64,000 nucleotides of DNA from an uncultured Candidatus Nitrosopumilus sp. (GTDB taxonomy: Archaea > Thermoproteota > Nitrososphaeria > Nitrososphaerales > Nitrosopumilaceae): positions 21,148 through 85,147 of the forward strand of contig CAJQRN010000013.1 in assembly GCA_905612295.1 (NCBI GenBank), in the 5' to 3' direction. Both the position numbers and the translations under genes were made by a program. Each line of letters opens with the position of its first letter. Positions within the stretch are counted from its first letter, which is position 1. The notes below the pieces were generated by a model. It ran no database searches. It was not told the DNA's origin and saw nothing but the letters and a program-made list of their open reading frames with translations. Below, in pieces: positions 21,015 through 21,863 of this stretch.

Positions 21015-21680
21015 TTATTCCAAAATATCATAATATTGATTTAGACGTTGTGTTAGCAATTCTTTGTAGTCTTCCGTATTTTTTACAAATTCCATTCTTG
21101 AATTTTTTTCACTGCTAACCAGGATGACCACTTGTTTAACTTCAATTCCTGTTAATTCTTTGAACATTTTTGCATATGCTGTACCTTGAATGAAATGATC
21201 TGTCATCCATTCTTCTTTTTGATTACTTCTTTTTGTTTTATAATCGATAATTGATAATTCCCCATCATATTTTGCTATACAATCTGAAGTTCCAGCAAGT
21301 TTCATTGCATAACTGTAAAGTCTTAATTCTGTTCCATGCACATCATCAATTTTTTGTAAAAACGGGATTAGATTATTAAAATGTGCCACTGTTAGTAATC
21401 TTACTTCATCTGTTTGTCTTACGTCATTAATGTAATTTTCAATTAATTTGTGAGTTTCTGTACCTATAGTTGCTGCTTCACTAGTGATGTACTCTGCTGC
21501 TACTTCTCTATCTTTCCAATTTTGTAAACTTTCTTTTTTTTCAATTGACATTGTTTTTTGTAGTATTGTTGTAATTGATGGAAAAATTTCTCCACGTGGT
21601 GTTTCATAATAATGTGAATTATCTTTTTCAATTAATTTCGCTTGTTGAAAATTAATTGGAATGTGGTTATACGATGACAT
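21015..21680 (-). CDS. PD-(D/E)XK nuclease-like protein
   Basis: 221 aa; SITTILQKT, GTETHKLIE, GTSDCIAKYDGELSIIDYKTKR (D...DxK core), QGTAYAKMFKELTG. Confidence 0.75.
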   Translation of the reverse strand: MSSYNHIPINFQQAKLIEKDNSHYYETPRGEIFPSITTILQKTMSIEKKESLQNWKDREVAAEYITSEAATIGTETHKLIENYINDVRQTDEVRLLTVAHFNNLIPFLQKIDDVHGTELRLYSYAMKLAGTSDCIAKYDGELSIIDYKTKRSNQKEEWMTDHFIQGTAYAKMFKELTGIEVKQVVILVSSEKNSRMEFVKNTEDYKELLTQRLNQYYDILE

Positions 21681-21770
21681 TTTTATAATTATTTTATTGG
21701 TTCATATAGTTATTTTGTATTTTTATTTTTTTAAAAATATTCTAATTTATGAATATTAAATTAAAATAAT

Positions 21771-21863
21771 GGACCCGATGGGATTTGAACCCACGACCTT
21801 TGCGGGAATTTCTTCCTTACGCAGTGTGAGTGCGTCATCCAAACCAAACTAGACGACGAGTCC
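21771..21863 (-). tRNA. tRNA-Val(CAC), with an intron in the variable region (inferred 21799-21817)
   Basis: Acceptor GGACTCG/CGGGTCC, anticodon arm ACGCA-CTCACAC-TGCGT, T arm GTGGG-TTCAAAT-CCCAT. Removing AGGAAGAAATTCCCGCAAA leaves a 5-nt variable loop AGGTC. Confidence 0.85.

Follow-up and report, generated by a model that had tools for sequence, protein, structure and literature searches.

The tRNA-Val(CAC) gene described here is in all likelihood functional and interrupted by a small archaeal bulge–helix–bulge (BHB) intron in its variable loop, between mature positions 44 and 45, which the splicing endonuclease (EndA) of the host is predicted from sequence to excise. It lies in a 64,000-nt stretch of DNA, hereafter the window, that belongs to a 0.90-Mb, 73% complete Nitrosopumilus MAG. 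Nitrosopumilus is a marine ammonia-oxidising archaeon, and the succinyl-CoA ligase protein of the host shares 97–98% identity with its counterparts in named Nitrosopumilus MAGs. A sequence-only reading of the same DNA had proposed a non-canonical intron in the variable region of this tRNA, a proposal now supported by covariation, by intronless relatives and by a pair of EndA alpha and beta proteins.

The gene and its bulge–helix–bulge motif

The pre-tRNA occupies 94 nt on the minus strand (21770–21863, nucleotide 1 being 21863) and is recognized by both ARAGORN and Rfam (RF00005), the latter scoring the unspliced gene at 47.9 bits and modelling the additional bases as an insertion. The tRNA-Val(CAC) identity given in the sequence-only reading thus stands, whereas its span (21771–21863) omitted the discriminator base A73, at 21770; CCA is not encoded in the gene. 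The minus strand of the gene reads GGACTCG TC GTCTAGTTTGGTTTGGAT G ACGCA CTCACAC TGCGT AAGGAAGAAATTCCCGCAAAGGTC GTGGGTTCAAATCCCAT CGGGTCC A, with the anticodon CAC at 21826–21828 in the loop CTCACAC (21824–21830). From the anticodon stem (ACGCA/TGCGT) to the T arm, the variable region AAGGAAGAAATTCCCGCAAAGGTC comprises 24 nt where 5 are expected, as had already been noticed.

The segment UGCG-UAA-GGAA-GAAA-UUCC-CGCA-AAG forms a BHB motif. Before splicing, UGCG on the 3′ side of the anticodon stem (nt 39–42, 21820–21823) would pair with CGCA at the 3′ end of the intron (21801–21804) and not with the 5′ strand of the stem, while the intronic hairpin GGAA-GAAA-UUCC, with its GNRA tetraloop (21805–21816), would hold the other side, leaving two 3-nt bulges, UAA (21817–21819) and AAG (21798–21800). 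Cleavage by a host (alpha-beta)2 EndA two bases into each bulge, between 21818 and 21817 and between 21799 and 21798, would release the 19-nt intron AGGAAGAAATTCCCGCAAA (21799–21817), as delimited from the BHB register and from intronless relatives. Exon 2, which would start with the variable-loop GGUC (45–48) and the T arm (21778–21798), would then be joined to exon 1, probably by an RtcB-type ligase as in archaea; the anticodon stem would re-form as ACGCA/UGCGU next to the variable loop AGGUC, and the spliced tRNA would serve in translation.

Indeed, once 21799–21817 is removed, the remaining 75 nt adopt a full cloverleaf as their minimum free energy (MFE) structure, with a variable loop A44-G45-G46-U47-C48 that is also found, as AGGTC, in intronless relatives. 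The MFE structure of the bare precursor segment is a BHB with a 3-bp central helix (GCG/CGC), in which U39 pairs with G45 and not with the intron A; comparative data on relatives favour the 4-bp register with a U39–A pair. When the 24 nt were shuffled, 0.02% of 200,000 trials produced a strict BHB, defined by a central helix of 4 bp, two bulges of 3 nt, no fewer than 4 inner pairs and a mature loop of 5 nt in whichever of 6 registers; the share rose to 0.12% when 3 or more inner pairs sufficed. This criterion is no general intron finder and served only to rate the tRNA-Val(CAC) motif, since it missed the 37/38 sites of the canonical introns of host tRNA-Tyr, tRNA-Met and tRNA-Leu, taken as positive controls, and returned spurious registers or none.

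Covariation and alternative readings of the insert

Conservation of the fold was assessed on 81 distinct intron-bearing sequences, of which 78 show all 4 pairs of the central helix together with 3 or more inner pairs. The two 3-nt bulges on opposite strands and the 4-bp helix at the exon–intron borders, which had been described together with the GGAA/TTCC inner helix from the sequence of the window, are thereby present both in the window and in these relatives. The first bulge is UAA or UAU in 77 of the 81 sequences and the second is AAG in 64, and changes in intron length are confined to the inner helix and loop.

Covariation was counted on 22 distinct trimmed rows. Paired cells reach 99.4% (versus 86.1% after shuffling and 33.8–62.9% with partners slid) and double-changed cells number 21 (versus 5.1 in shuffles, with 0 of 500 shuffles as high), figures that lean towards the BHB structure because the rows were trimmed to it, and whose cells are non-independent events because the rows come from related genomes. 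By the same count, CGCA is paired with nt 39–42 in 98.9% of cells and the inner hairpin in 100%, and all three tested inner-helix pairs display changes on both sides. The intron base opposite nt 39 covaries with it (UA, AU, GU, UG and GC), a compensatory change in the central helix. Two order-level relatives with inserts (G284 and G288) were excluded from the pair counts, as their register does not fit.

These observations bear directly on whether the insert could be a true class II arm, a long variable arm that stays in the mature tRNA. A GGAA/UUCC hairpin within the variable region would be consistent with such an arm, which would however not require the bases beyond the hairpin to pair and covary with nt 39 of the anticodon stem, as they do. 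Valine is a class I tRNA isotype, and the two other valine tRNAs of the host, Val(TAC) and Val(GAC), are of ordinary length (74–77 nt) and intron-free according to ARAGORN. Moreover, in close relatives the variable loop is the 5-nt AGGTC, and the length of the insert drifts from 16 to 48 nt. The isotype is thus not one with a long arm, and the insert is neither free of pairing with the anticodon stem nor stable across relatives; we consider a class II arm very improbable.

Even less probable, to the point of being negligible, is a decaying pseudogene that has suffered an insertion. The insert does lower the tRNA model score, but every stem is intact, the same insert is found with compensatory changes in nearly all gene-bearing Nitrosopumilus genomes and in most genera of the family, and no intact intronless Val(CAC) duplicate was found in the 73% complete genome. 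A true long variable arm and a pseudogene are both effectively ruled out. The gene is very probably functional despite its low model score, and the likely mature sequence is fixed.

Distribution of the intron and of intronless relatives

Of the 22 sampled genera of the Nitrosopumilus family, 21 include one or more genomes with an insert at the same site, and Nitrosopumilus genomes that gave a full match carry the intron almost without exception, marking small variable-loop introns as an old, stable trait of this family. Its length ranges from 16 to 25 nt, except in a genome of genus g13 (G106; locus L099, G106:C253:4885-5007), in which it reaches 48 nt with the inner helix kept as GGAGTA/TACTCC. 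The intron was also seen next to the succinyl-CoA ligase locus of Ca. Nitrosopumilus salaria BD31, Ca. N. limneticus and Nitrosarchaeum sp. BD3, among many more: of 80 loci fetched via succinyl-CoA ligase, 74 matched the tRNA-Val(CAC) pattern, and 15 of the 18 shown in detail contain the intron. Several g1 genomes, mostly incomplete, gave no match to the search pattern; three of them (G047, G051 and G080) do carry the intron, with a changed T loop outside the pattern, and three others without a match (G091, G065 and G068) are fairly complete. In the window, the tRNA gene adjoins a PD-(D/E)XK nuclease-like gene (21015–21680, minus strand); none was found in the G001 neighbourhood, and a homologue exists in G003.

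Intronless genes occur within the same family. The gene of G245 (L223) reads ACGCA-CTCACAC-TGCGT-AGGTC, an insert-free sequence identical to the predicted exon junction, and scores 68.1 bits versus 47.9 for the unspliced gene of the window. Together with the 75-nt cloverleaf, this precise junction upholds the cleavage sites put forward in the sequence-only reading, as well as its mature variable loop AGGTC. In genus g19, tRNA-Val(CAC) is intronless with a variable loop AGGTC and lies between sucCD and pepF, the same neighbours as in Nitrosopumilus though flipped; this position suggests that the gene was altered in place and not replaced from elsewhere. In genus g9 most genomes lack the intron and a few carry it (G162, G187 and G230), and genus g6 is mixed (G135 with the intron, G099 without). 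Comparison with the tRNA-Val(CAC) of related genomes, suggested beforehand as a check, thus yields a conserved intron with compensatory changes, an insert-free junction and intronless orthologues.

This patchiness also weighs against an intron retained for a second role, such as aiding a modification or regulating splicing, and not as neutral baggage. Its persistence across most of the family and the GNRA loops of 23 of the 81 distinct sequences could suggest such a role, but the intron is absent from g19, most of g9 and some of g6 although the tRNA is kept, its loop varies freely in sequence and length, and it probably falls short of the length needed for a C/D guide RNA. We therefore grant a second role only a small chance.

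Across the wider order and phylum, tRNA-Val(CAC) mostly has a plain 5-nt loop, so that genes without the intron are common beyond the family. In family f9 of the same order, tRNA-Val(CAC) introns with a GGCG/CGCC central helix were observed (G309, G325, G333 and G339; L233 and L234), and, with the register read from sequence, they seem to lie at the same site, 44/45. Presence, size change and exact absence in one family might be regarded, with slightly less than even confidence, as a natural series of gain and loss, the similar 44/45 introns of f9 reflecting either an ancient intron lost many times or repeated insertion at a hot spot. In any case, intron-bearing and intronless orthologues side by side are useful for studies of intron loss in archaea. 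One Nitrosopumilus-type intron-containing tRNA outside the family (G330:C19, L230) was rejected as likely contamination, being on a short contig of a genome with its own intronless gene. Nitrosopumilaceae-type tRNA-Val loci were also noticed in entries titled Acidimicrobiia (L328) and Nitrososphaeraceae (L313), probably through contamination or mislabelled bins.

Splicing endonuclease and known archaeal introns

The host genome encodes two EndA-family proteins (PF01974). EndA alpha matches the crenarchaeal catalytic subunits 2cv8 and 3p1z (PDB) over its length and has a CSL-like loop of the crenarchaeal type, GYYGKPIGIPKPK, with the catalytic Tyr, His and Lys positions kept, while the second protein, encoded elsewhere in the genome, is a divergent beta paralogue. 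This pair is fitting for an (alpha-beta)2 enzyme and, at the level of sequence, for the heteromeric EndA expected for off-site introns. Thaumarchaeota are described as having alpha2-beta2 enzymes (review; PMC4090602), and a lysine-containing EndA loop has been tied to the tolerance of off-site introns (PMC12397907).

The tRNA-Val(CAC) intron is a real and ordinary example of a known intron type, since V-arm, short and non-canonical thaumarchaeal introns have already been described, and no general idea is changed by it. Its length and position, highlighted in the sequence-only reading as notable, are both real, but less notable than thought: published archaeal tRNA introns span 11–175 nt (PMC2738675), and V-arm introns are known, for instance at 45/46 (PMC3293823). 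That intron, in tRNA-Thr(GGU) of Caldiarchaeum subterraneum, is likewise a variable-region intron bounded by BHB-type borders, but in another tRNA and another lineage, one position further 3′. Closer still in lineage are the 107 non-canonical introns counted in Thaumarchaeota, for which tRNAscan-SE 2.0 has a dedicated model (PMC8450103); they share the BHB logic, small size and location off the 37/38 site, and, as the main text of that paper names no individual genes, this count may or may not include the tRNA-Val(CAC) intron. Our literature search retrieved no text naming a 44/45 intron in tRNA-Val(CAC), individual entries being listed in supplements and databases outside this search. Canonical 37/38 introns are alike in enzyme and motif (PMC4090602), whereas the present intron lies at 44/45 and takes half of its central helix from the 3′ side of the anticodon stem. 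Three other tRNA genes of the host carry introns in the anticodon region according to ARAGORN: tRNA-Met(CAT) (40 nt; L027, C42:34521-34635), tRNA-Leu(CAA) (21 nt; L129, C7:42021-42121) and tRNA-Tyr(GTA) (35 nt; L131, C7:26850-26973).
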